This document shows positions 1-9,502 of a DNA stretch of 9,502 nucleotides, in pieces. The stretch is from Chloroflexota bacterium (GTDB lineage Bacteria > Chloroflexota > Limnocylindria > Limnocylindrales > CSP1-4): positions 1 to 9,502 of the forward strand of contig JAKAMV010000320.1 in NCBI GenBank assembly GCA_021812735.1, in the 5' to 3' direction. Position 1 is the stretch's first letter. The number at the start of each line of letters is the position of its first letter. Under the pieces are notes generated by a model. It did not search any database, was not told where the DNA came from, and saw only the letters and a program-made list of their open reading frames with translations. A program made the position numbers and the translations under genes.

Positions 1-2
1 CT

Positions 3-194
3 GGCGGCGCGTCCGATCCCACCCTCCAGGCGCTCGACGCGGAGGGTGATGACGTCAACCCGAATGTCCTGACCGTCGTGGACCAACTCGAGAAGGCCAC
101 GGCCGCCGTGAAACGAACATGGGTCAACAACGCGGAGGCGACGGCCGTCCGGTGTGATGATGAGTCGCAGCCTGACCTTCGGGTTCAGCCGTGA
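3..194 (+). CDS. C-terminal end of an unknown protein (5' truncated by window edge)
   Basis: The third frame is open from the first bases to a TGA at 192-194, giving 63 residues and the stop. The visible part is acidic and soluble-looking, with a helical stretch (VVDQLEKATAAVKRTW) and no membrane segment, and it ends in LRVQP. I do not recognise the family. Its stop overlaps the GTG start of the next gene in the arrangement GTGA, which implies translational coupling and a shared function, so it is probably another component of the same membrane system. The start and the N-terminal domains lie outside the window. The call rests on the open frame, protein-like composition and the coupled overlap. 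Confidence 0.55.
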   Translation, partial: GGASDPTLQALDAEGDDVNPNVLTVVDQLEKATAAVKRTWVNNAEATAVRCDDESQPDLRVQP

Positions 195-766
195 GATGGT
201 GGCTCAACGCTCGCGCGATCAAACTGCTGCTCCTCGTCTCGATCCTCACGGTTCTGCTCTTGGTCCTCCCAGTTTCCGCCCTAACCGCAACGCCCAGCCC
301 GGGTGGCGCAACACTCGCCCTTGCCGCAATGGCTGCGCTAGCACTGCCAGCGTCTATTGGTTGGGCACTCTCGCGAGGTGACGAAGGACTTGAACGGCGC
401 GCCATCCGACCAACCGCGGCGGCAGACCTCGGTCTCGTGCTGGCGTTGGTCGTTGGTGTGGTTACGCTTGAGGGCGTCCTCTGTGCAGCCGGACTCGCGG
501 CCGCCGGCCTCGTCGCGGCGCGGGCGGCATTGACCTACACAGGGATGATGCTCATTTCGGCGTCGTTCGGTGGGTGGGGAAGCGCTGCCATCGTGCCGGC
601 GATCTACTTCACATTTGTGTTGGTCGTCGGGGGCGGAAGTGACGTGGACAACCCGGCAGCGTGGGCATGGATAGGCGCGCCAGGGACGAACGCGGCGGCA
701 ATGGCGGCGGCCGCGGGAACGTTTCTGATTGGCGTCATCGCCCGTGCGCGGTGGGCTCTGCGGTAG
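191..766 (+). CDS. Multi-pass membrane protein, ABC-2 permease-like
   Basis: This is a 191-residue integral membrane protein of unproven function. Hydrophobic segments are visible at about residues 10-31, 39-60, 78-110 (long enough for one or two passes), 116-147 and 166-186, so five or six passes. A charged cytoplasmic-type loop (about 61-76, with RGDEGLERRAIRP) lies between the second and third. The segment near 155-160 (NPAAWAW) resembles the Trp-rich C-terminal part of some actinobacterial ABC-2-type transport proteins, but I see no diagnostic motif. The GTG at 191 is preferred because it overlaps the preceding stop (GTGA), a typical coupled start; the ATG at 196 is in another frame. Third codon positions look less uniformly G or C than in the kinase and sigma genes, judged by eye. 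A permease partner is an inference. Confidence 0.65.
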   Translation: MRWWLNARAIKLLLLVSILTVLLLVLPVSALTATPSPGGATLALAAMAALALPASIGWALSRGDEGLERRAIRPTAAADLGLVLALVVGVVTLEGVLCAAGLAAAGLVAARAALTYTGMMLISASFGGWGSAAIVPAIYFTFVLVVGGGSDVDNPAAWAWIGAPGTNAAAMAAAAGTFLIGVIARARWALR

Positions 767-846
767 CCGGCCGCCCGAAGTTGACCGGCCACGCCTTTCG
801 CGCTCATCGGCCCGGTCGGGCGTGTTCCAGGAGCCGTGCCCGGTGG

Positions 847-1038
847 TCAGGTAAAGACCCACGACCGCGCGAGCGCTGATCTCGGCGTCCAGTCGTGGTT
901 GCCGTTGAAGTCCAGCTCGTTGGTCGGCGTCGACTGTGCCCCGCACATCATCGACATGCCGGCGTTCGTGTCGCGGTGGCCAAGCCCGAGGGTGTGCCCG
1001 AGCTCGTGCGCCAGGGGGAGGCCGATCGTCGCTAGACG
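847..1038 (-). pseudogene. Metzincin zinc metalloprotease, C-terminal relic
   Basis: On the minus strand, one frame from just after a TGA (1039-1041) to a TGA at 847-849 encodes 63 residues containing HELGHTLGLGH at 1008-976. This is a perfect HEXXHXXGXXH metzincin zinc site: three His ligands and the catalytic Glu. Ten residues later comes MSMMCG, placed like the Met-turn that follows the zinc helix in this clan. The end contains LDFNGNHDWTP, a plausible C-terminal closure. No start codon, propeptide or N-terminal catalytic half precedes it in frame: two in-frame TGA codons lie within about 40 nt upstream, and the other two frames of 1042-1188 give no protease-like sequence. It is therefore a decayed or truncated gene, or the end of one broken by several frameshifts. 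It lies 150 nt downstream of a possible inhibitor-like secreted gene on the same strand. Confidence 0.7.
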
Positions 1039-1188
1039 TCACGTGCCGCTTCAAGGCATGCGCTTCGGAACCCTCTGGTCCGCGTCGGGCGGCGGGCCGT
1101 CGTCGACCATCCGATGGCAGCGGCCGTCGGGCACGAGCGGCGTCGGCGAGGCCTCGGCGGATGTGGTCGCCAGCGGCCAGCGCCGGCG

Positions 1189-1707
1189 TTACGTGCGGTA
1201 CACCGAGCTGATTGCGTTGTTGAAGGTGGGGGAGAGGGTCGGCGCGTACCCGTTGCAGCAGAACGTGAGGAGGTATCCGCCGTGGAACCAGTCCGTGTAG
1301 AAGACGCCGGACGCGTTGTTGATGGCGATGTAGGACTCGATCCGGTCGTTCCAGCCGATGAGCGCCAGTGCATCGTAGTTCTGGGAGATGACCATGTACG
1401 ATCCCTGGTAGAGCTGGGATGAGAAGATCTCCACGTAGTCGCTGGAGGCGGACGCTGTTGCCGGCGCGGTCGTGGCCGAGCTCGCGGAGGGACCCGCGGC
1501 ACGGGCGCGCTCGAGCGCGGCGGCAGAGCGGAAGCAGTGGATGCGCGGGAAGTCGCGGTCATGGCAGTAGTAGTCGGCGATCATGGTGACCGCGATAGGG
1601 CTGCCCTCCAGGTCGGCGGCGATGCTCGACTGGGCGCCTGACGCGGCGGCGGGCGCAGCAGCAGACATGAGCCCCGCGATGGCGAGGACGATGGCGGCAC
1701 GGTGCAT
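1189..1707 (-). CDS. Secreted beta/gamma-crystallin-like protein (peptidase inhibitor I36 type)
   Basis: This is a 172-residue exported protein. Residues 1-25 are a signal peptide with an AIVLAIAGLMSAAAPAAA-type core and a cleavage-like ASGA. A Ser/Ala/Thr-rich stretch (about 70-88) links to the C-terminal domain at about 90-172. That domain has the aromatic, Gly-rich Greek-key look of bacterial beta/gamma-crystallins and I36 inhibitors: YVEIFSSQLYQGSYMVIS, GWNDRIESY, FYTDWFHGGYLLTF, FNNAISSVYR. NNAISS fits the calcium-site pattern (N/D)(N/D)XX(S/T)S exactly; NDRIES is a degenerate first copy with Glu in the Ser/Thr position. A Cys pair (CC, near 148) and a CH...HC arrangement near 47-58 could form disulfides. 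The start was chosen because a signal peptide follows it and GAGGGG lies about 7 nt upstream. It may inhibit proteases or bind calcium in the envelope; the family includes the Streptomyces metalloproteinase inhibitor SMPI. Confidence 0.75.
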   Translation of the reverse strand: MHRAAIVLAIAGLMSAAAPAAASGAQSSIAADLEGSPIAVTMIADYYCHDRDFPRIHCFRSAAALERARAAGPSASSATTAPATASASSDYVEIFSSQLYQGSYMVISQNYDALALIGWNDRIESYIAINNASGVFYTDWFHGGYLLTFCCNGYAPTLSPTFNNAISSVYRT

Positions 1708-1772
1708 GGGAACCCCTCGGCTCGGCGTGGCGGCGGACGCGCGTCGAGCGTGAGCCGAGACGGCCGTCAGAG

Positions 1773-1817
1773 CGATGGGGCGGCTCCCTTGCCCGGGCCG
1801 AGGGTTCCACCCCATCG
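1773..1817. promoter_or_regulatory. Inverted repeat between divergent genes (candidate operator)
   Basis: CGATGGGG at 1773-1780 is repeated in perfect inverse as CCCCATCG at 1810-1817. Between them are CCCT/AGGG arms (1787-1790 and 1801-1804) around a GCCCGGGC palindrome. The whole lies in the 134-bp gap between the minus-strand crystallin gene (start 1707) and the kinase (start 1842), where a shared operator or a hairpin would be expected. The right arm is part of a 20-bp motif (1798-1817) that recurs at 4107-4126 with one mismatch. A regulatory role is inferred. Confidence 0.4.
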
Positions 1818-1841
1818 ACCGCGCGCAGCTCGAGCCACACG

Positions 1842-3332
1842 ATGAGGCCGTCATGGACCGCGGCGGTCGCGGTCGTCGCGCTCGCGTGCGGCGTCTACTC
1901 GCTCGCCGTGGCCGCCACCGCGGTGCTCGAGCCGGGGATCACGGTCGATGGGACAGGCTCCGTCGTGCTCTCGGTCGACCCGCAGGAGTACGGGTGGGCG
2001 TACGGCGTCCGACCCGGCGACCGAGTGGTCTCCACCCGCGGGGCGGGCCAGCCCGGCGGTGCGGCGATCACCGTCGCCGACGCGTCCGGCCAGCTCGAGG
2101 CGAGCGAGCGCGGGCCCGAGGTGCGCCTGCGCGTTACGGCGCCGCTGGCGCTCGGCGCGATCGTGGCGGCACTCTTCGGGTTCGGCCTCTCGGCCCGCCG
2201 CAGCCGCCGTGCCCCGGCACTGGTCGTGGTGGCACTCGCGTGCGCGGCCCTGCCCCTGTACCTCGCGGACCCCTCGACTCCCTCAGCCGCCGTCGTCCTG
2301 CTCGGCGTCGTGGCGCCCCCGGTGGAAGCTGTTGGCAGGGCGACCCGGCGGCGGGCTCTCGTCATGCTATGGCTCGCCGCGGCCACGGTCGTCGGCGCTT
2401 GGTGGGTCGACCTGCGGCTGTCCCACGCCTGGAGTCCCCTCCCCGTCGGAGCGGGCGCAGCGGCTCTCACGGTCGTGGGCGGGGTCGTCGCTGCGGCGAG
2501 GGCTGCCGACGTGAACCGGCAGCGCGCCGTCCGCCTGGCGTCGCAGACCCAGTTCCTGGACATCGCGGTGGTCGCCGCCTCAGCTGTCGTCTTCGTGTCG
2601 CTCGCGACCCTCGACGCGCCTCTCCCCGTCACCCTCCTAGCGTCGCTCCTGCCGATCGCCGTGTACGCGCCCGCTCGGCGCATCATTCCGAGGCTCGCCG
2701 ACCGGCTCGTCTTTGCCGACCTGCGGGAGCGCGAGTCGATCCGTGCCACAGAGGAGGAGCGGGCAAGGATCGCCCGAGACATCCATGACGACCCGCTCCA
2801 GGCGATCGCGGGCGTGATCCGCTCGCTCGATGATCCGACTGCTGACCGTGCCCAGGCGCGCGAGTCGCTGCGGGAGGTGGCTACGCGGCTCCGCACGGTC
2901 GCCACGGACCTGCGCCCGCCGGTCCTCGACGACCTGGGCCTGGTCCCAGCCATCGAGGACGGATGCCGCCGTGCTGGCGGCATCGAAGCGACGGCGGTGA
3001 TCGAGAACGCGTCCGGCTACGGCGCGGCCGGCCGTCCCCCGGCCGAGGTCGAGCTCGCCGCGTTCCGGGTGGTGCAGGAGGCGCTCGCGAACGCCGCGAA
3101 GCACGCGCCCGGCAGCCGTGTCGCCGTGACCGGGTCGGTGTCGCACCACGCCATCGCGCTCGACGTCACCGACGACGGGCCCGGGATGCCGCCTCCGAGG
3201 GCCGGAGAGGCCCTCGCTGAGGGGCGCCTGGGGATCCCGTCGATGCGGCGCCGCGCCGAGGCCATCGGCGCTCAGATCACCATCGAATCGCGCCCCGGAC
3301 GCACGACCGTCCGTCTCCGGTGGTCCGCATGA
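1842..3332 (+). CDS. NarL-family sensor histidine kinase with extracytoplasmic PDZ-like segment
   Basis: This 496-residue membrane kinase autophosphorylates on His and passes the phosphate to the regulator encoded next. A first membrane segment (about 6-28) is followed by an outside segment of about 70 residues (30-98) whose GVRPGDRVVS core resembles the carboxylate-loop region of a PDZ domain. Further membrane segments lie at about 99-117, 126-142, 147-163, 172-190, 200-219 and 239-276. The HisKA_3 dimerisation helix is at 295-360, with phosphoacceptor H315 in ARDIHDDPLQ. The HATPase_c domain (400-496) shows an N box with E413 and N417 (VQEALANAAKHA), a G1 box DDGPGM (444-449), a G2 GRLGIPSMRRR (461-471) and a C-terminal strand TTVRLRW. 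All catalytic motifs are present, so it looks functional. ATG 1842 gives a clean N-terminal membrane anchor, though the ribosome site before it is weak. Its stop overlaps the regulator start (ATGA). The signal sensed is unknown. Confidence 0.93.
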   Translation: MRPSWTAAVAVVALACGVYSLAVAATAVLEPGITVDGTGSVVLSVDPQEYGWAYGVRPGDRVVSTRGAGQPGGAAITVADASGQLEASERGPEVRLRVTAPLALGAIVAALFGFGLSARRSRRAPALVVVALACAALPLYLADPSTPSAAVVLLGVVAPPVEAVGRATRRRALVMLWLAAATVVGAWWVDLRLSHAWSPLPVGAGAAALTVVGGVVAAARAADVNRQRAVRLASQTQFLDIAVVAASAVVFVSLATLDAPLPVTLLASLLPIAVYAPARRIIPRLADRLVFADLRERESIRATEEERARIARDIHDDPLQAIAGVIRSLDDPTADRAQARESLREVATRLRTVATDLRPPVLDDLGLVPAIEDGCRRAGGIEATAVIENASGYGAAGRPPAEVELAAFRVVQEALANAAKHAPGSRVAVTGSVSHHAIALDVTDDGPGMPPPRAGEALAEGRLGIPSMRRRAEAIGAQITIESRPGRTTVRLRWSA

Positions 3333-3979
3333 GCGTCCGCGTGGCCATCGTCGAGGATCACCCCGTGGTCACCCGCGGGCTTCTCGCCGCGCTCGGCGCC
3401 CGAGAGGGCATGGAGCTGGTCGGGTCGGCCAAGACCCTCGCCGAGGCGCGGGCGCTGTTCGCCTCGACGCCGTCCGACGTCGTGCTCCTCGACCTGCGGC
3501 TGCCGGACGGGTCGGGCGTCGAGCTCCTGCGCGAGTCGGACGGCGAGGGGCCGGCCTTCGTCGTGCTCTCGAGCTTCGTATCCCCCGAGTACGTGTCCGC
3601 GGCCATCGCGATGGGTGCGAGCGGGTTCCTCCTCAAGACGTCCGAGACAGAGGACATCGAGGCCGCCGTCACGACCGCGGCCGCGGGCGGCCTCGCGTTT
3701 ACCGCCGAGCAGCTCCGGGACGCCCGGCGTGCCGCCTGGGCACCGCTCACCGCGCGCGAGCGCGCCGTGATCGCGGGCGTCATGGCGGGTCGGTCGAATG
3801 ACGAGCTGACGGGCGACCTTGGGCTGTCGAGGAAGACCGTCGAGGGCTACATCACGCGGCTGCTCGCGAGGTACGGCCTCGCGACTCGGACCGAGCTCGC
3901 GGTCATGGCCCAGCGCGACCTGTTGCTCGAGCTGCCGACGGCAGAGCGCCGTCGAGGCCAGCTCCCCGACCGCGGCTGA
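3329..3979 (+). CDS. NarL/LuxR-family response regulator
   Basis: This 216-residue DNA-binding response regulator is the partner of the kinase just upstream. The receiver domain (3-118) has the acidic pair E9/D10, phosphoacceptor D55 in VVLLDLRLPDG, a conserved Ser at 81-82 (LSSF) and Lys 103 (LLKTSE). The LuxR-type helix-turn-helix is at about 138-198: LTARERAVIAGVMAGRSNDE, GLSRKTVEGYITRLLARYG and ATRTEL follow the family pattern, including the invariant Glu of ARE and the KTVE recognition helix. ATG 3329 was chosen because it gives ATGA overlap with the kinase stop and starts directly at the first receiver strand; the in-frame GTG at 3320 would add only three residues. Candidate binding sites are the GGGTTYCACCC motifs at 1798-1817 and 4107-4126, but this link is inference. 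Confidence 0.93.
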   Translation: MSVRVAIVEDHPVVTRGLLAALGAREGMELVGSAKTLAEARALFASTPSDVVLLDLRLPDGSGVELLRESDGEGPAFVVLSSFVSPEYVSAAIAMGASGFLLKTSETEDIEAAVTTAAAGGLAFTAEQLRDARRAAWAPLTARERAVIAGVMAGRSNDELTGDLGLSRKTVEGYITRLLARYGLATRTELAVMAQRDLLLELPTAERRRGQLPDRG

Positions 3980-4106
3980 CGGGCGCCGGCGCTCACGATC
4001 GCGGCCCGTGCGGCGGAATGCGCGGAGGGCCGAAGCGTGAACCCGAGTAGGGGTGCCGCAAGACTGCGCCCGGTCCCGTGGTGGCTCGCACGGCGGCCAT
4101 GGCGTG

Positions 4107-4126
4107 CCGAGGGTTTCACCCCATCG
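4107..4126. repeat. Second copy of a 20-bp dispersed motif (first at 1798-1817)
   Basis: CCGAGGGTTTCACCCCATCG here matches 1798-1817 at 19 of 20 positions (C to T at the tenth base). The core GGGT-N3-ACCC is an 11-bp dyad, which suits a dimeric regulator. One copy lies between the divergent crystallin and kinase genes, the other downstream of the response regulator in the gap leading to the sigma gene, so the two flank the kinase-regulator operon. Confidence 0.45.
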
Positions 4127-4196
4127 CGCCGCGGTCGGGGGCGTGCGACGCTCCGAGCGAGCCGACGGGCTTATGCCCCAGGGGGAACGGCGCCAA

Positions 4197-4246
4197 CGGC
4201 GAGGACGGCCGCCGCCTCCGTCTGGAGGCCAGTGCCATCCTCGCCG
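4197..4246. other. Nested stem-loop, candidate structured RNA or terminator
   Basis: CGGCGAGGA (4197-4205) and TCCTCGCCG (4238-4246) are perfect 9-bp inverse copies. Inside them GCCTCC (4214-4219) and GGAGGC (4224-4229) form a second perfect 6-bp stem with a GTCT tetraloop. No T tract follows, so a classical intrinsic terminator is not supported. It could be a small RNA, a leader structure or a DNA site, or chance in GC-rich DNA. Confidence 0.3.
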
Positions 4247-4460
4247 TCCCTGCTCCAAGCGGGCCCCGACGCGGGTCCCCCAGCCCATCACCGCTCGTCC
4301 GCGCGTCGGAGGGACACAGGGTCGGGATGCGCGCGATCAGTCGGGTCATGTTCCAAACGAACGCCGAGGGCCTGGAGTCCGACCCTCGAGGCGCTCAGCG
4401 CCGCAGGCGGCGCGGAGCCCGAGATTGAACCGAGAGTGTCCAACTCGCCACTAAACCATC

Positions 4461-5009
4461 GTGGAGACTATCTTGGGCGCTCTTGACGCCCGATCCGTCG
4501 CGGCGCTGGTCCTCGCTGCCCGCAGCGGGGACCGCGACGCCTTCGCCGACCTCGTCGAGCCGTACCTCCCCGGGGCCTTGGGGATGGCCCGTCTCGTCAG
4601 CGGGTCAGCCGCCGATGGCGCGGACGCCGTCCAGGACGCGCTGCTTTCGGCATGGCTGGGCCTCGGGGCCCTCCGGGCGCCGGAGGCATTCGGAAGCTGG
4701 TTCCGGCGCCAGGTCGTTCGCGCAGCGATGCGGAAGAGCCGCATGCGCCGCGCCGTAGGCCAGCTCGATCTCGAGCTCGCGGCACCCGAGGGCGAGCTGG
4801 AGCGCGCGGTCGCGGCCCGGCTGCTCGACCGGGCGTTCGACCGCATCGAGCCCAAGGACCGCCTCGTCATCACCCTCCGTCACGTCCTCGACCTCCCGGG
4901 CGCCGAGGTGGCGGAGCTGCTGGGCGTGCCGGAGGGCACCGTCAAGAGCCGGCTCCACAGCGCAATCGAGCACCTTCGAGCCGCCTGCGAGGCGGAGGAG
5001 CGAGCATGA
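4461..5009 (+). CDS. ECF-like sigma-70 family RNA polymerase sigma factor
   Basis: This 182-residue sigma factor recruits RNA polymerase to a dedicated promoter set. Region 2 spans about 26-95: AFADLVEPYLPGALGMARLV, then the region 2.2 core DAVQDALLSAWLGL (55-68), and FGSWFRRQVVRAAMRKSR (77-94) in the 2.3-2.4 position. A short acidic linker (about 100-118) precedes region 4 (120-176), where RLVITLRHVLDLPGAEVAEL and LGVPEGTVKSRLHSAIEHLR form the -35-binding helix-turn-helix. The size fits the two-domain ECF group. The frame opens after a TAA at 4452-4454, and GTG 4461 is the only early start that leaves region 2 complete; no good ribosome site precedes it, so the start is less certain than the gene. 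Its stop overlaps the next start (ATGA), coupling it to a membrane protein that is probably its regulator. Confidence 0.9.
   Translation: METILGALDARSVAALVLAARSGDRDAFADLVEPYLPGALGMARLVSGSAADGADAVQDALLSAWLGLGALRAPEAFGSWFRRQVVRAAMRKSRMRRAVGQLDLELAAPEGELERAVAARLLDRAFDRIEPKDRLVITLRHVLDLPGAEVAELLGVPEGTVKSRLHSAIEHLRAACEAEERA
4994..5000 (+). promoter_or_regulatory. Strong Shine-Dalgarno for the propeller gene
   Basis: GGAGGAG lies 5 nt before ATG 5006, inside the last codons of the sigma gene. It fixes the start of the downstream gene, where longer in-frame extensions upstream (to 4652) are only open sequence overlapping the sigma gene. Confidence 0.75.
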
Positions 5010-6352
5010 CCGAGGACCTCGAGACCCGCATCCGGAGCCGCCTGCGGGAGCGGGCGCAGCCGACCCCAAGTGAGCTGGCCGCCGCCCGGTCCTTCATCGC
5101 TGCACTGCCCGCGCGGCGGGCGGGGCTCTTCGGCGGTCGGCTGCGCCTCGCGGCCGCCTTGGTCGGCGTGGTCGCGGTGGGCCTCGTGGGCGCCGCGCTC
5201 GCGATCGGTCCGGCGTCCCGCGACCAGTCTCCGTCGGCCTCGGGGGCACCGGCCGCATCCTCATCGAGCCCGGGCCCAGCGGCATCGACGGGCGGTCCGG
5301 CAGCCGCCTTCTGGCAGCTCGTTGCACCGGTGGGCACGACGAATCACGCGGCGATGAGCGGCGTCGTCGCGTTCGGCGGCCAGTTCGTCGCGGTCGGGGC
5401 GACCGGCAACCGCGCGACCGCCTGGACCTCCGTGGACGGGCGCGGCTGGGCTGCCCAGGCCATCGCCGCGGCGCCCTCGTCGGCGTCCTCCGTTGCCGAG
5501 ACCGGAAACGGGGAGTTGGCCGCCCTGGGTGACGCAGCCGGGCGCCCGACGGTGTGGCTATCCCGGGATGGCGGCTCGTGGTCCGCGTCGCCCCTGCCGG
5601 CGCCGGTGTGGAACGAGCCTGTCGCCGCCGCGGGCAGCATCGTCTCGGGCCCTGCGGGCCTCCTGGCGCTCGGCAGGTACTCGGTCGAGACGGGCGGCCC
5701 CACCGCGCCGAGCGGCTTCGACCCGCTTGCGCCGGTCCTTTGGTGGTCGGCCGACGGGAAGAGCTGGGCCACCGTCGCGTTCGCCAAGGGCGTCCAGGTG
5801 TGGTCGGTCGCCGCGTTCGACGGCGGCTTCCTCCTGGGCGGCGCCCGCCGCGAGGGGAGCCTCTGGGTGCCGGCGATCTGGGTGTCCGGCGACGGGCGTA
5901 CCTGGAGCGCCGCGGCAACCCCCGCAGTTAAGGGCTCGGCGTCGGGCTACCTTGTGGCCGACGCCCTCGCTGCCGGCCCCCACGGGCTCCTGGCGGCGAT
6001 CGGGGTCGCGGCAGGGCCGGGGGGTGCCGTATGGCAGTCGGCCGACGGCAGGACCTGGACCGACGCAGCCGGCGTCGGGGACCCGAGCGAGAGCGTGCTT
6101 CTGCTCTCCTGGGCCGGCGACCGGTTCATCGCGGTCGGAATCCGGAACCGCGACGTTGCCGCCGCGAGCGCCGAGGCGACGACGATCGTGTCCGAGTCCA
6201 CGGACGGGAGCAGCTGGAGGACGGTGGCGACGATCGACACCGCCCGGGCGCGCCCGGCCTCGATCGCCGCGGACGGGACGCGACGGGTGGTCGTGGGCTG
6301 GGGCGGCGGGGCCGGGGACGGCGCCTTGGTGCTCGTGGGCTCGCCGCAATAG
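5006..6352 (+). CDS. Membrane-anchored six-repeat Asp-box propeller, likely sigma-factor partner
   Basis: This is a 448-residue single-pass protein. Residues 1-45 are a charged, helical cytoplasmic part (MTEDLETRIRSRLRERA...), 46-68 a membrane helix, 70-100 a Ser/Pro/Ala-rich spacer, and 101-448 an outside domain. That domain has six Asp-box-like turns: SVDGRGW (142-148), SRDGGSW (186-192), SADGKSW (248-254), SGDGRTW (294-300), SADGRTW (345-351) and STDGSSW (398-404). Their spacing of about 44-62 residues fits one per blade of a six-bladed beta-propeller of the BNR/sialidase-like type, but no enzyme active site is recognisable. The coupled position after an ECF-like sigma factor is where anti-sigma factors are found. 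The N-terminal part lacks the HX3CX2C zinc anti-sigma motif, so any sigma binding would use another fold. A cell-surface sensor controlling the sigma factor is my inference. Confidence 0.85.
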   Translation: MTEDLETRIRSRLRERAQPTPSELAAARSFIAALPARRAGLFGGRLRLAAALVGVVAVGLVGAALAIGPASRDQSPSASGAPAASSSSPGPAASTGGPAAAFWQLVAPVGTTNHAAMSGVVAFGGQFVAVGATGNRATAWTSVDGRGWAAQAIAAAPSSASSVAETGNGELAALGDAAGRPTVWLSRDGGSWSASPLPAPVWNEPVAAAGSIVSGPAGLLALGRYSVETGGPTAPSGFDPLAPVLWWSADGKSWATVAFAKGVQVWSVAAFDGGFLLGGARREGSLWVPAIWVSGDGRTWSAAATPAVKGSASGYLVADALAAGPHGLLAAIGVAAGPGGAVWQSADGRTWTDAAGVGDPSESVLLLSWAGDRFIAVGIRNRDVAAASAEATTIVSESTDGSSWRTVATIDTARARPASIAADGTRRVVVGWGGGAGDGALVLVGSPQ

Positions 6353-6371
6353 GCGGCCGGCGGGCTCCATA

Positions 6372-6408
6372 GGCGGTCATCGGGGCCTGGGCCACCGATC
6401 CGACCGCC
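6372..6408 (+). terminator. Strong hairpin after the sigma/propeller operon
   Basis: GGCGGTCATCGG (6372-6383) pairs with CCGAT (6395-6399) and GACCGCC (6402-6408): 12 pairs with a 2-nt bulge and an 11-nt loop, starting 20 nt after the propeller stop. Only a short T run (GTTT) follows some 13 nt later, so it is a terminator-like hairpin without a proper U tract. Confidence 0.5.
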
Positions 6409-6505
6409 CGACGCCTGTCGTTTCCAGCGAGATCAGGCGCACATCGGCCTCTTCGGTCGCCACGGCGTCCCCGCGTGCGAGCCAGAAAGGCGATGAGCAG
6501 CGGGT

Positions 6506-6628
6506 TCCGTACACGATCACGTGCGCATCTGACGTTGACCAACGGGTCGGCGGTCCCTACTGTCGGCGCAGGGATTGATCCGCTCGTTCTTGTGCGGAAC
6601 CTGGCGCCAGCGGCGCGGGCGGTGCCTT
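6506..6628. repeat. 123-bp direct repeat, copy 1
   Basis: This stretch is identical base for base to 9380-9502. The left border is sharp: T at 6505 against A at 9379. The right border cannot be defined because copy 2 ends with the window. It contains CACGTG (6519-6524), a promoter-like pair, and the 10-bp palindrome CTGGCGCCAG (6601-6610). One frame is open through the whole unit, here giving a 45-codon reading frame at 6493-6630 with ATG and TGA, which I do not accept as a gene. Confidence 0.95.
6535..6563 (+). promoter_or_regulatory. Sigma70-type promoter match inside repeat copy 1
   Basis: TTGACC (6535-6540) and TACTGT (6558-6563) are separated by exactly 17 nt and would start transcription near 6570, toward the recombinase relic and the ATPase. 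The same pair is in copy 2 at 9409-9414 and 9432-9437. The -10 keeps only the essential TA...T positions, so this is a plausible but unproven promoter. Confidence 0.4.
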
Positions 6629-6717
6629 GAGCGAGCGAATGACCATCGGTCGTTCGAACCGGGGCGCCCTGTCGAGCCGGATCAACCCTGGACACCTGAA
6701 GGGAGGGGCCGGCCGCC

Positions 6718-6783
6718 ATGACCAACAGCCGCGTGGACATCACCTCCCATGCCGCCGGCCCCGCGCGCGCCCAGTCCCGCTGA
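6718..6783 (+). CDS. Very short reading frame with good ribosome site (possible 5' stub)
   Basis: ATG 6718 follows GGGAGG (6701-6706) by 11 nt and opens a 21-codon frame (MTNSRVDITSH...) ending at TGA 6781-6783. It lies just before the point where recombinase similarity begins in another frame. It could be the surviving start of a gene whose remainder was deleted or frameshifted, or chance. I do not recognise the sequence. Confidence 0.2.
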   Translation: MTNSRVDITSHAAGPARAQSR

Positions 6784-7312
6784 GCCGACCCCGCGGCCGC
6801 AAGTGGATCCTCGCGCAGCCCAGCGGCGCCGCCGCCAGCTCGCAGATGCCTTCCCGGTCGGCCGGATCTCGGAGCGAGATCTGATCGACGAGATGGGGAG
6901 GCTCAGGACCGAGGCCGCGGCCGAGGGCGATGCCATCGCGGCACGACCAGTCGACGTCGACCGGGCGATGGACTACATCCGGGACTTCGCCGCCAGCTGG
7001 GCGAAGGCTCAGCCCCCGACGAAGACGGCGCTGATCCAGTCCGTGTACGCCCAGATCGTGGTGCGGGGCGCGGAGTTCGTCTCGGTCCGGCTGACGCCAG
7101 AGGCGTACGCGCACGGCCTCGCGGTGGCTCTACCCGAAGAGGTCGAGGTTCCCGCGCTGCCGCCGTGGGGCGGGCGGAGAACAGCACCACAGTCAAATAT
7201 GGCAATGGCGCGCCCGACAGAATTCGGGCCTTCGCGTACCCACCTAGGTTTCCGGCACATCCCGATCGAGGGTGCCGAGGCTTGGGTGGCTGGCTGCTTG
7301 CGAATCGCCTAG
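6749..7312 (+). pseudogene. Large serine recombinase, C-terminal remnant
   Basis: The frame (open from 6722, first ATG 6749) encodes a stretch that I recognise as the end of a large serine integrase/resolvase. RRRRQLADAFPVGRISERDL and IDEMGRLRTEAA (about residues 26-57) match the coiled-coil insertion part of the family; WAKAQPPTKTALIQSVYAQI and VVRGAEFVSVRLTPEAYAHG (84-123) match the segment after it. The catalytic resolvase domain with its nucleophilic Ser and the DNA-binding recombinase domain, normally over 300 residues, are absent upstream. The first 20 residues are low-complexity Pro/Ala and the last 50 (after about 137) do not look like the family. No ribosome site precedes ATG 6749. 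It cannot be an active recombinase; it marks an old mobile element at this locus. Confidence 0.75.
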
Positions 7313-7387
7313 CGAGGGGGCCAACTCGGAGTCGCGCTTTCGCATCGAGCCCGGTCCGCGTCCTCCAACCCATTGCGGTCCGCCAAC

Positions 7388-7433
7388 TGGGTGCCTTGAC
7401 ACGACTCGATTGGGTGCCCATGATCGACTCAAA
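7388..7433 (+). promoter_or_regulatory. Near-consensus promoter with 23-bp direct repeats, predicted leaderless start
   Basis: TTGACA (7396-7401, perfect -35) and CATGAT (7419-7424, four of six -10 bases) are 17 nt apart. Initiation about 7 nt after the -10 would fall at 7431-7433, on the ATG of the ATPase, which has no Shine-Dalgarno. Two 23-nt units (7388-7410 and 7411-7433) share TGGGTGCC and CGACTC at identical positions (15 of 23 bases), and a third TGGGTG begins at 7434. The repeats overlay the promoter as an operator would. Confidence 0.6.
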
Positions 7434-8722
7434 TGGGTGTCGAACAGCCAGCCGCTCCCGATGGCGACCTCCTGTACCGGCCGCGCGTGGCCGACGCCGA
7501 GCTGGCGGCAATGCTGCAGGCTGCTGGCGCCGTGGTCGTCGAAGGGCCGCGCGCCTGCGGGAAGACGCAGACCGCGCTCCGGGCCGCCGCGAGCGCCGCC
7601 CGGCTCGACGTCGACGACGCGGCGCGGGCGGCCGGGCTGCTGTCGCCGGGGCTCCTCCTCGACGGGGCGCGCCCCCGCCTGATCGACGAGTGGCAGCTGG
7701 TGCCCGCCGTCTGGAACCACGTCCGGCGCGCCGTCGACGATGCCGGCGGGCTCCCGGGCCAGTTCGTGCTGACGGGGTCCGCAGTCCCGGCCGACGACGC
7801 CACCCGCCACAGCGGCGCCGGGCGCTTCACCCGGCTGCGCATGCGCCCCATGACGCTGGCGGAAGCCGGGCGCTCCAGCGGGGAGGTGTCGCTCGCCGCC
7901 CTCCTCGCGGGCGACGCGCCCCGCGCGGGCGATCCCGGGCTCGGCATCCGTGACGTCGCGGGACTGGTGGCCGTCGGCGGCTGGCCGGCCCTGCTCGGGC
8001 GGCCCGTGGACGCGGCGCTCGCCGCCAACCGCGGGTACCTCGACGAGACGCGGCGGGCGGATCTGGCCCGCGCGGACGGCGTGGCCCGCGACCCGGAGAA
8101 CGTCGGCCGCGTCCTGCGCTCGCTCGCGCGGCACGTGTCGACGCAGGCGTCGGCGCGCTCGATCGCGGCCGACGTCCACGGGGCGGAGGGCCCCGTGGAC
8201 CACCACACGGTCCTGGCGTACCTCGCCGCGCTCTCCCGCGTGTTCGTCGTCGAGGACCTGCCGGCTTGGTCGCCCGCGCTCCGGTCGAGGACGCCACTGC
8301 GGGCCGCGCCCACCCGGCACTTCACCGACCCGTCGCTCGCCGTCGCCGCGCTCGGCGCCGACCCCGACCGGCTACTCCGCGACGTGGAGACCCTGGGGCT
8401 CCTGTTCGAGTCGCTCGTGGTCCGCGACCTGCGCGTGTTCGCCCAGGCGCTCGGCGCGACGGTGTCGCACTACCGCGATGCGACCGACCTCGAGGCCGAC
8501 GCGGTCGTCGAGCGGCGCGACGGGACCTGGGCGGCCTTCGAGGTCAAGCTCGGCCCAGGGTCCGTGGACGCCGGCGCCCGCTCGCTTCTGCGGCTCGCCG
8601 AGCGGGTCGACGCGGACCGGCACGGTCCGCCCGCGGCACTCGTCGTGGTGACCGGCTGGGGGTACGCGTACCGTCGCCCGGACGGGGTCTGCGTCGTTCC
8701 AGCGGGGGCGCTGGGGCGGTAG
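7433..8722 (+). CDS. AAA_14/DUF4143 family ATPase
   Basis: This 429-residue cytoplasmic P-loop ATPase has the usual family length. The AAA_14 part (about 20-145) shows Walker A GPRACGKT (38-45), Walker B RLIDEWQ (82-88, D85/E86), a sensor-like FVLTGSA (111-117) and the conserved GAGRFTRLRMRPMTLAE (128-144), whose Arg is finger-like. The DUF4143 part follows: GWPALLGR (183-190), YLDETRRADL (202-211), a winged-helix-like region (225-275), HFTDPSLAVAALG (296-308), then LFESLVVRDL (324-333) and DLEADAVVE...FEVKLG (352-374). The last E...D...ExK spacing resembles a PD-(D/E)XK nuclease core. The physiological role of the family is not settled; links to mobile DNA and toxin-like systems have been suggested. 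All core motifs are intact. No partner gene adjoins it, and it lies between two relics. The start follows from the promoter and the lack of any better start. Confidence 0.88.
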   Translation: MGVEQPAAPDGDLLYRPRVADAELAAMLQAAGAVVVEGPRACGKTQTALRAAASAARLDVDDAARAAGLLSPGLLLDGARPRLIDEWQLVPAVWNHVRRAVDDAGGLPGQFVLTGSAVPADDATRHSGAGRFTRLRMRPMTLAEAGRSSGEVSLAALLAGDAPRAGDPGLGIRDVAGLVAVGGWPALLGRPVDAALAANRGYLDETRRADLARADGVARDPENVGRVLRSLARHVSTQASARSIAADVHGAEGPVDHHTVLAYLAALSRVFVVEDLPAWSPALRSRTPLRAAPTRHFTDPSLAVAALGADPDRLLRDVETLGLLFESLVVRDLRVFAQALGATVSHYRDATDLEADAVVERRDGTWAAFEVKLGPGSVDAGARSLLRLAERVDADRHGPPAALVVVTGWGYAYRRPDGVCVVPAGALGR

Positions 8723-8881
8723 ACGGTGTGGTCGTCGATGCCGCCATCGACATCCGCCACATCGGCGGCGATCGGTAGCTCCGCGCCTCAGCCCCAGCCG
8801 CTGCCCCCGGGCCGGCCCGAAGCCGCAGCGTGCCCCGTACCATCGGAGCGTCTGCTTCGGCGTGGCGGGGGGTCGGGGAGT

Positions 8882-9379
8882 ATGAACCGGGTCAACCTGT
8901 TCGAGTTCACGGACATGCCGTGGTATCCGCGGGCGTTCCGGCGGATCCAGACGGACCACCTGCAGTTCGTGGCGACACGCGGGGCTGGCCACGGGAACCT
9001 TGTACCGCTGATCAAGGGGGCGCTTGCGGCAGGCGGCACGACGGAGATCGTCGATCTGTGCTCGGGCGGGACGGGACCATGGGAGCGGCTGGTCGGCCAG
9101 CTGGCGTCCACTGGCATCGACGTCGAGGTGAAGCTGACGGACCTGTACCCCGACCAAGCGGCCGCTACCCGACCGGCGCGCGGTCGGGCGCCCGCGATCG
9201 AGTACCTGGCCGAGCCCGTCGATGCCGCGTCGGTTCCAGCGCACCTGACCGGCATGCGCACGCTCTTCGAGGCTTCCACCACTTCGAGCCGGATCTGGCC
9301 GAGACGATCCTGCGCGACGCTATGGCCAGGCGGGCGCCCATCGGCGTGTTCGAGGCGAGTCTCCCCTCCGTGGCCTCGA
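8882..9379 (+). pseudogene. Class I SAM-dependent methyltransferase, frameshifted and truncated
   Basis: ATG 8882 (G-rich ribosome site at 8867-8872) opens a protein beginning MNRVNLFEFTDMPWYPRAFR, the N-terminus of a class I methyltransferase family. The SAM-binding motif I is VDLCSGGTGPW (57-67) and the acidic second strand ends LTDLYPD (85-91). After LFE (128-130) the frame goes wrong: at 9271-9272 one G appears missing, and the next frame continues the family with FHHFEPDLAETILRDAMARR then APIGVFEASL from 9274 to about 9378. At 9380 the direct repeat begins and similarity ends, so about the last third (normally with hydrophobic segments) is gone. The uncorrected frame stops at 9404-9406. 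Substrate unknown. The 1-nt change could be a sequencing error; the truncation cannot. The gap 8723-8881 before it shows nothing clear. Confidence 0.8.
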
Positions 9380-9502
9380 TCCGTACACGATCACGTGCGC
9401 ATCTGACGTTGACCAACGGGTCGGCGGTCCCTACTGTCGGCGCAGGGATTGATCCGCTCGTTCTTGTGCGGAACCTGGCGCCAGCGGCGCGGGCGGTGCC
9501 TT
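9380..9502. repeat. 123-bp direct repeat, copy 2, cut by the window end
   Basis: Identical to 6506-6628, same orientation, 2874 bp away. It replaces the 3' part of the methyltransferase gene and runs to the final base, so the true repeat may be longer. It carries the same TTGACC-17-TACTGT pair (9409-9437) and the CTGGCGCCAG palindrome (9475-9484). The frame-corrected methyltransferase frame stays open through it to the window end. Confidence 0.95.

Follow-up and report, generated by a model that had tools for sequence, protein, structure and literature searches.

A 123-base direct repeat closing a Chloroflexota contig is probably the left end of a small mobile element

The 9,502-nucleotide stretch of contig JAKAMV010000320.1 analyzed here (assembly GCA_021812735.1, Chloroflexota bacterium; hereafter, the window) raises the question of why its last bases repeat an internal sequence exactly. 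Positions 6506-6628 and 9380-9502 are identical letter for letter over 123 bases, with starts 2874 bases apart. The base immediately 5' is T (6505) for copy 1 and A (9379) for copy 2, which finishes on the window's final base, 9502. An exact match of this length lies far beyond chance expectation; the remaining direct repeats listed were 24-38 bases long and 70-92% identical (20 of 37 families shown). The initial annotation had reported these identical repeats and had placed between them a recombinase remnant, an AAA_14/DUF4143 ATPase gene and a broken methyltransferase gene, a description that was borne out throughout. It had offered three explanations: a mobile unit or a tandem duplication, with a 2874-bp period and possibly able to excise; a dispersed repeat family with its left end at 6506/9380; or a contig stopped by a branch of the assembly graph within a repeat.

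We favor, with moderate confidence, the reading that each repeat opens a copy of a small mobile element and that the contig stops k bases into the second copy. The 123-bp sequence would form the left end of a small dispersed element, with its upstream repeats, a promoter-like region and the leader start; the complete element would carry genes for a replication-relaxation protein and a serine recombinase. Positions 6506 to approximately 7312 would be an internally deleted copy. A second copy would start at 9380, joined inside a methyltransferase-like gene, where it would have arrived by insertion and beyond which it would continue as element; the assembler, unable to extend through the repeat, would have added k = 123 bases of copy 2 to the contig and gone no further. 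The left end is probably real, while the right edge at 6628/9502 is probably artefactual.

The left end was found at four loci outside the window. Positions 6506-6799 were ~71% identical to contigs C107 and C59 of one metagenome-assembled genome (G116; JAJXUG01, labeled 'Chloroflexi bacterium isolate BP4.bin83'), and positions 6507-6729 were 72% identical to contig C80 of the same genome. One more copy occurred at locus L224 in JAJZQV010000096, labeled 'Actinomycetes bacterium isolate SKS1.bin60' (profile E 3.1e-44). The profile search confirmed five of 55 stretches: the three loci of G116 itself, L224 with the left end, and L226 without it (best profile E 0.095 for the left end). The edge was tested at the window's two junctions, the three of G116 and the one of L224. 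These six junctions were compared as 15 pairs over 100 bases on each side of the hexamer CCGTAC. To the right of CCGTAC all 15 pairs aligned, at z 11.7-44.8; to the left, z ranged from -0.7 to 3.5, near background. The six junctions share a left element end at CCGTAC, exact to within some bases, and the edge at 6506/9380 looks biological. This common edge supports the dispersed repeat family of the initial annotation, which is compatible with its stopped contig; the two probably describe one event.

A search of the repeat with its following bases in related genomes, which the initial annotation had proposed, gave long matches in G116 only, at three places. Positions 6506-6799 matched eight of 107 genomes, the seven other than G116 with one match each of 22-62 bases. 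Positions 6629-6790 matched eight of 201 genomes, over more than 50 bases in G116 only. The element family is therefore known from few places. The 123-bp repeat, searched against 101 genomes, gave five short matches (four of 22-28 bases and one in G002 of 38 bases at 82%), which were judged to be chance in GC-rich DNA; the flanks of all but the G002 match showed by eye nothing more that resembled the element. Searches with exact 30- and 31-base patterns from the repeat gave no matches in viral contigs and none in genome contigs, and a distant search of 6506-6799 against plasmids and phages was likewise negative at E 1e-5. The nearest genome, G001, weakly matched 3392-6520 and 6300-9502 and was uninformative on the repeat.

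Contig C80 of G116 gave the order of a complete element. Its left end was followed by a 313-amino acid (aa) Replic_Relax protein (PF13814, E 2e-16) and then a 533-aa serine recombinase (PF00239, E 4e-10), the whole occupying ~3.2 kb in one stretch. The ends of this element matched window positions 6507-6729 and 6824-7293, the latter at 70% nucleotide identity to C80 6671-7134. These two parts are separated by 2.5 kb in C80, with no window match between them, and similarity stops near the equivalent of 7293-7312. Because the window matches C80 at both ends and not between, 6506 to ~7312 would be an internally deleted copy. An open frame at 6749-7312 aligned over 158 aa, at 56% identity, with the C-terminal part of the intact C80 recombinase; alone, this remnant had no Pfam match. 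The Resolvase domain is present in the C80 element, while the window retains only the C-terminal part of the gene. Diverse proteins that looked secreted by eye were encoded within ~2.5 kb of the three G116 copies (L082, L083 and L084).

Within the remnant frame, positions 7206-7230 are a 25-nt relic of the 3' end of a tRNA-Arg, in minus sense. Recombinase relatives in G040 and G001 run antisense into an intact tRNA-Arg(CCG) at the same place (L073, 2974-3049; L075, 2678-2753); in C80 and the window the tRNA 3' end alone is retained within the recombinase frame. A tRNA gene search found none in the window and none around the G116 copies on C107 or C80, with one near C59, ~7.3 kb from the left end. 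In addition to the relic, no second attachment core copy was identified. The DNA right of the C80 element matched six of 12 genus genomes, over more than 50 bases outside G116 in G130 only, and none of seven loci outside the C80 site covered the DNA left of the element.

Between the recombinase remnant and copy 2 lie two further genes. Homologues of the AAA_14/DUF4143 ATPase occurred in 39 of 107 family genomes, and the gene is read as an independent accessory gene. Some genomes had many copies and fragments of it (G120 gave 11 matches), and at two loci homology began at 7384-7388, ~45-50 bp upstream of the gene, as if the gene were itself dispersed; the loci behind these observations include L208 (G120 C199) and L198 (G002 C95). 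The methyltransferase-like gene matched five of 107 genomes, four of them strongly. It carries a one-base frameshift near 9272 and lacks the last ~100 residues of its relatives: nucleotide homology stops at 9353-9359 in three relatives and at 9285 in the fourth, and all four extend ~100 aa beyond the junction. Its name is weak: for a relative, Pfam assigns DUF6187 at E 0.0024 and Methyltransf_25 at E 0.18, neither of which reaches the curated cut-off. Insertion of the element would be expected to leave a methyltransferase gene that gives way to the repeat, as seen here. Twenty-five loci (L198-L222), drawn from the methyltransferase matches and a part of the ATPase matches, were compared with the window, with flanks of at most 1.5 kb. 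None of the 25 held the left-end sequence, none held both genes, and neither gene was seen sharing a unit with the element. As no locus had the left end or both genes, the 2.9-kb segment is best read, from these comparisons, as three separate things side by side.

These results bear on a tandem duplication or excised circle of 2,874-bp period, in which copy 2 would open a second unit of 6506-9379 and recombination between the repeats would release a circle with the ATPase and the truncated methyltransferase. A unit returning to its own start yields a lasso-shaped contig with a k-long overlap, and this explanation accounts for the 100% identity without extra assumptions. The breakpoint, however, sits on a left end common to four other loci with differing left flanks, which a random duplication would meet only by coincidence; the C80 match stops well within the proposed unit, near the equivalent of 7293-7312; and none of the 25 loci had the left end or both genes. 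We consider a tandem unit or circle very doubtful, and the excisable 2874-bp mobile unit of the initial annotation found no support in C80, where similarity to a whole element ends at ~7293-7312, or in the ATPase and methyltransferase genes found elsewhere without the element.

The length of the repeat is a separate matter from its left edge. Because the repeat stops exactly at the contig end, its length may be set by the assembler, and 123 is probably an assembler-set length and not a biological one. The finish of copy 2 on the last base suggests that the window end is the contig end. A passage of one paper (PMC6243002) gives, for metatranscriptome reads sequenced at the Joint Genome Institute, the MEGAHIT k list 23,43,63,83,103,123, whose top k is 123; a passage of a wetland metagenome paper that also names the Joint Genome Institute gives the same list (PMC6081815). 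In a section of their paper, the authors of CheckV describe many terminal repeats at specific lengths, likely assembler k-mers (PMC8116208). The window resembles the CheckV cases in having an exact repeat at the contig end whose length equals a k in practical use. It differs from them in that the partner copy is internal instead of at the opposite contig end, and in that the left edge of the repeat is common to other loci. Both the repeat length of 123 and its place at the end of the contig fit the stopped contig of the initial annotation.

Overlap lengths were calibrated on 150 distinct IMG/VR contigs of microvirus type, in which exact terminal overlaps of at least 20 bases were counted. The set consisted of a first 80 contigs (one of them an isolate phage genome) and a second 80 less nine duplicates, less L271, a locus that did not span its whole contig. 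Terminal overlaps were present in 66 contigs and absent in 84. Four lengths made up 40 of the 66 overlaps: 121 (n = 14), 144 (n = 10), 99 (n = 9) and 123 (n = 7). A length of 123 is one among a few favored lengths and is not the commonest. The commonest lengths at which a contig end recurred inside its contig were 98 and 77.

In a plain de Bruijn graph the contig should break at copy 1 as well. Some resolving or merging step must therefore have carried the contig across 6506-6628, and a wrong link there would give a chimeric or loop join, with the left-end sequence shared by several genomes or loci and the order 1-6628 / 6629-9379 / 9380-9502 absent from any one genome. A repeat that is a mobile-element end would be a natural graph hub, the overlap length resembles k, and the contig runs through copy 1 where a break is expected; a passage of one wetland study describes merging MEGAHIT assemblies with Newbler (PMC6081815). 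Positions 6506-6799 are nevertheless one continuous homologous stretch in C107 and C59, so that the join at 6628/6629 is natural, and the methyltransferase ends just where the element begins, in the manner of an insertion. A chimeric join is unlikely.

Several observations weigh against the reading of two element copies and a contig halted k bases into the second. To the left of the edge, z was at least 2 in five of 15 pairs, and BLAST matches overran the edge by 7-29 bases (copy 2 with C107, C80 and L224; C107 with C80). Eight bases, GGCCTCGA, are common to copy 2 and C80 in the overrun region; they may be coincidental, may reflect a preferred site, or may mean that the true end lies slightly to the left of 6506/9380, as the overruns also allow. 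The G116 paralogues are only 69-86% identical in aligned stretches, so two identical window copies need a recent event; the copies must be either recent or one molecule seen twice. No empty site was found in the 12 genus genomes. That the window was assembled with k = 123 is something we infer, and exactly 123 bases were seen in only seven of 66 terminal overlaps. Contig ends recurred inside their contigs 44 times, in 31 of the 150 contigs, never at 123 bases; this absence leaves the odds of the element reading unmoved, because that reading is built on the left edge rather than on the length of 123. The link made through 6506-6628 by a resolving or merging step could also be wrong.

The two repeats are mostly ordinary, and the element is of a known kind. 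It is like serine-recombinase integrative elements (Resolvase PF00239, in some cases Recombinase PF07508, with Replic_Relax PF13814) in the Replic_Relax gene and 533-aa recombinase to the right of the same left end in C80, and in the G040 and G001 recombinase relatives that run into tRNA-Arg(CCG). It is unlike them in that the window copy is internally deleted and has no complete recombinase, and in the tRNA surroundings of the G116 copies (no called gene at C107 or C80, a distant one at C59). Insertion sequences or composite transposons have direct copies at their flanks. The window is similar in that two direct copies bracket accessory genes and differs in that its scanned proteins include no complete recombinase or transposase and copy 2 is cut off. 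A composite transposon, in which two transposase-bearing copies would flank a cargo and move as one, was not borne out: copy 1 lacks any complete recombinase or transposase, and only 123 bases of copy 2 can be read.

The left end has a recognizable anatomy (Table 1). By eye, the aligned copies have in common two CGTACAC-like repeats spaced by 12 bases, a TTGAC motif and a TA-containing hexamer 17 bases on; the leader that follows contains the palindrome CTGGCGCCAG, a site resembling a Shine-Dalgarno sequence and a short open reading frame. A sigma-70 consensus scan of 6400-6900 scored no site, including the TTGACC/TACTGT pair seen by eye, and an Rfam scan of 6300-9502 found no family at E up to 1. 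Leader positions 6652-6660 contain GTTCGAACC, which is T-arm-like and lies inside a block similar in other copies; it is possibly an attachment-site relic or chance.

Table 1. Features of the repeat-bounded part of the window, with the basis for each.
Feature	Position	Strand	Basis
Copy 1 of 123-bp repeat, probable element left end	6506..6628	+	Exact repeat; ~71% identity to G116 loci, which have the same left edge
Two CGTACAC-like repeats, 12 bp apart	6508-6514, 6520-6526	+	By eye
Promoter-like region: TTGACC, 17-bp spacer, TACTGT, then leader start	6535-6540, 6558-6563	+	By eye
Rest of conserved 5' leader	6629..6799	+	71% identity to G116 C107 and C59 over 6506-6799
Shine-Dalgarno-like GAAGGGAGG	6698-6706	+	By eye
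Short open reading frame, 21 codons	6718-6783	+	By eye
Putative deletion joint; replication-relaxation gene and recombinase N-terminal part of C80 absent	6800..6823	+	Gap in C80 match
Serine recombinase C-terminal remnant	6824..7312	+	70% nucleotide identity to C80; 56% aa identity over 158 aa
AAA_14/DUF4143 ATPase gene, read as independent accessory gene	7433..8722	+	Pfam matches; homologues in 39/107 family genomes
Methyltransferase-like gene, 5' part; frameshift near 9272; cut at or just before 9380	8882..9379	+	Nucleotide homology to four relatives
Copy 2 of 123-bp repeat, putative first 123 bases of second element copy, halted by window end	9380..9502	+	Exact repeat; left-edge test

Elsewhere in the window, positions 1-3391 were identical to contig C315 of G001 (L025), which ends there and extends 10.6 kb further left; this contig and the window look like fragments of one population. 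A 24-base motif containing GCCGAGGGTTYCACCCCATCG occurred at 1794-1817 and 4103-4126 (92% identical), with its copies upstream of two-component genes and of an ECF sigma gene; it is possible that the motif is a shared promoter.

This case shows how an assembler k can pose as the length of a biological repeat, and how the left edge, which recurs at other loci and is real, can be told from the right edge and the length of 123, which are probably artefactual. The results also indicate a family of elements in uncultured Chloroflexota, of which few members were found and for which the literature was not searched. As a tentative further step, which we hold to be doubtful, this could be a compact (~3.2 kb) Chloroflexota family that encodes a replication-relaxation protein and a serine recombinase next to a conserved control region and little else, and that may have left an ancestral tRNA-Arg site and may now insert at many sites, including inside genes, while its left end stays constant.

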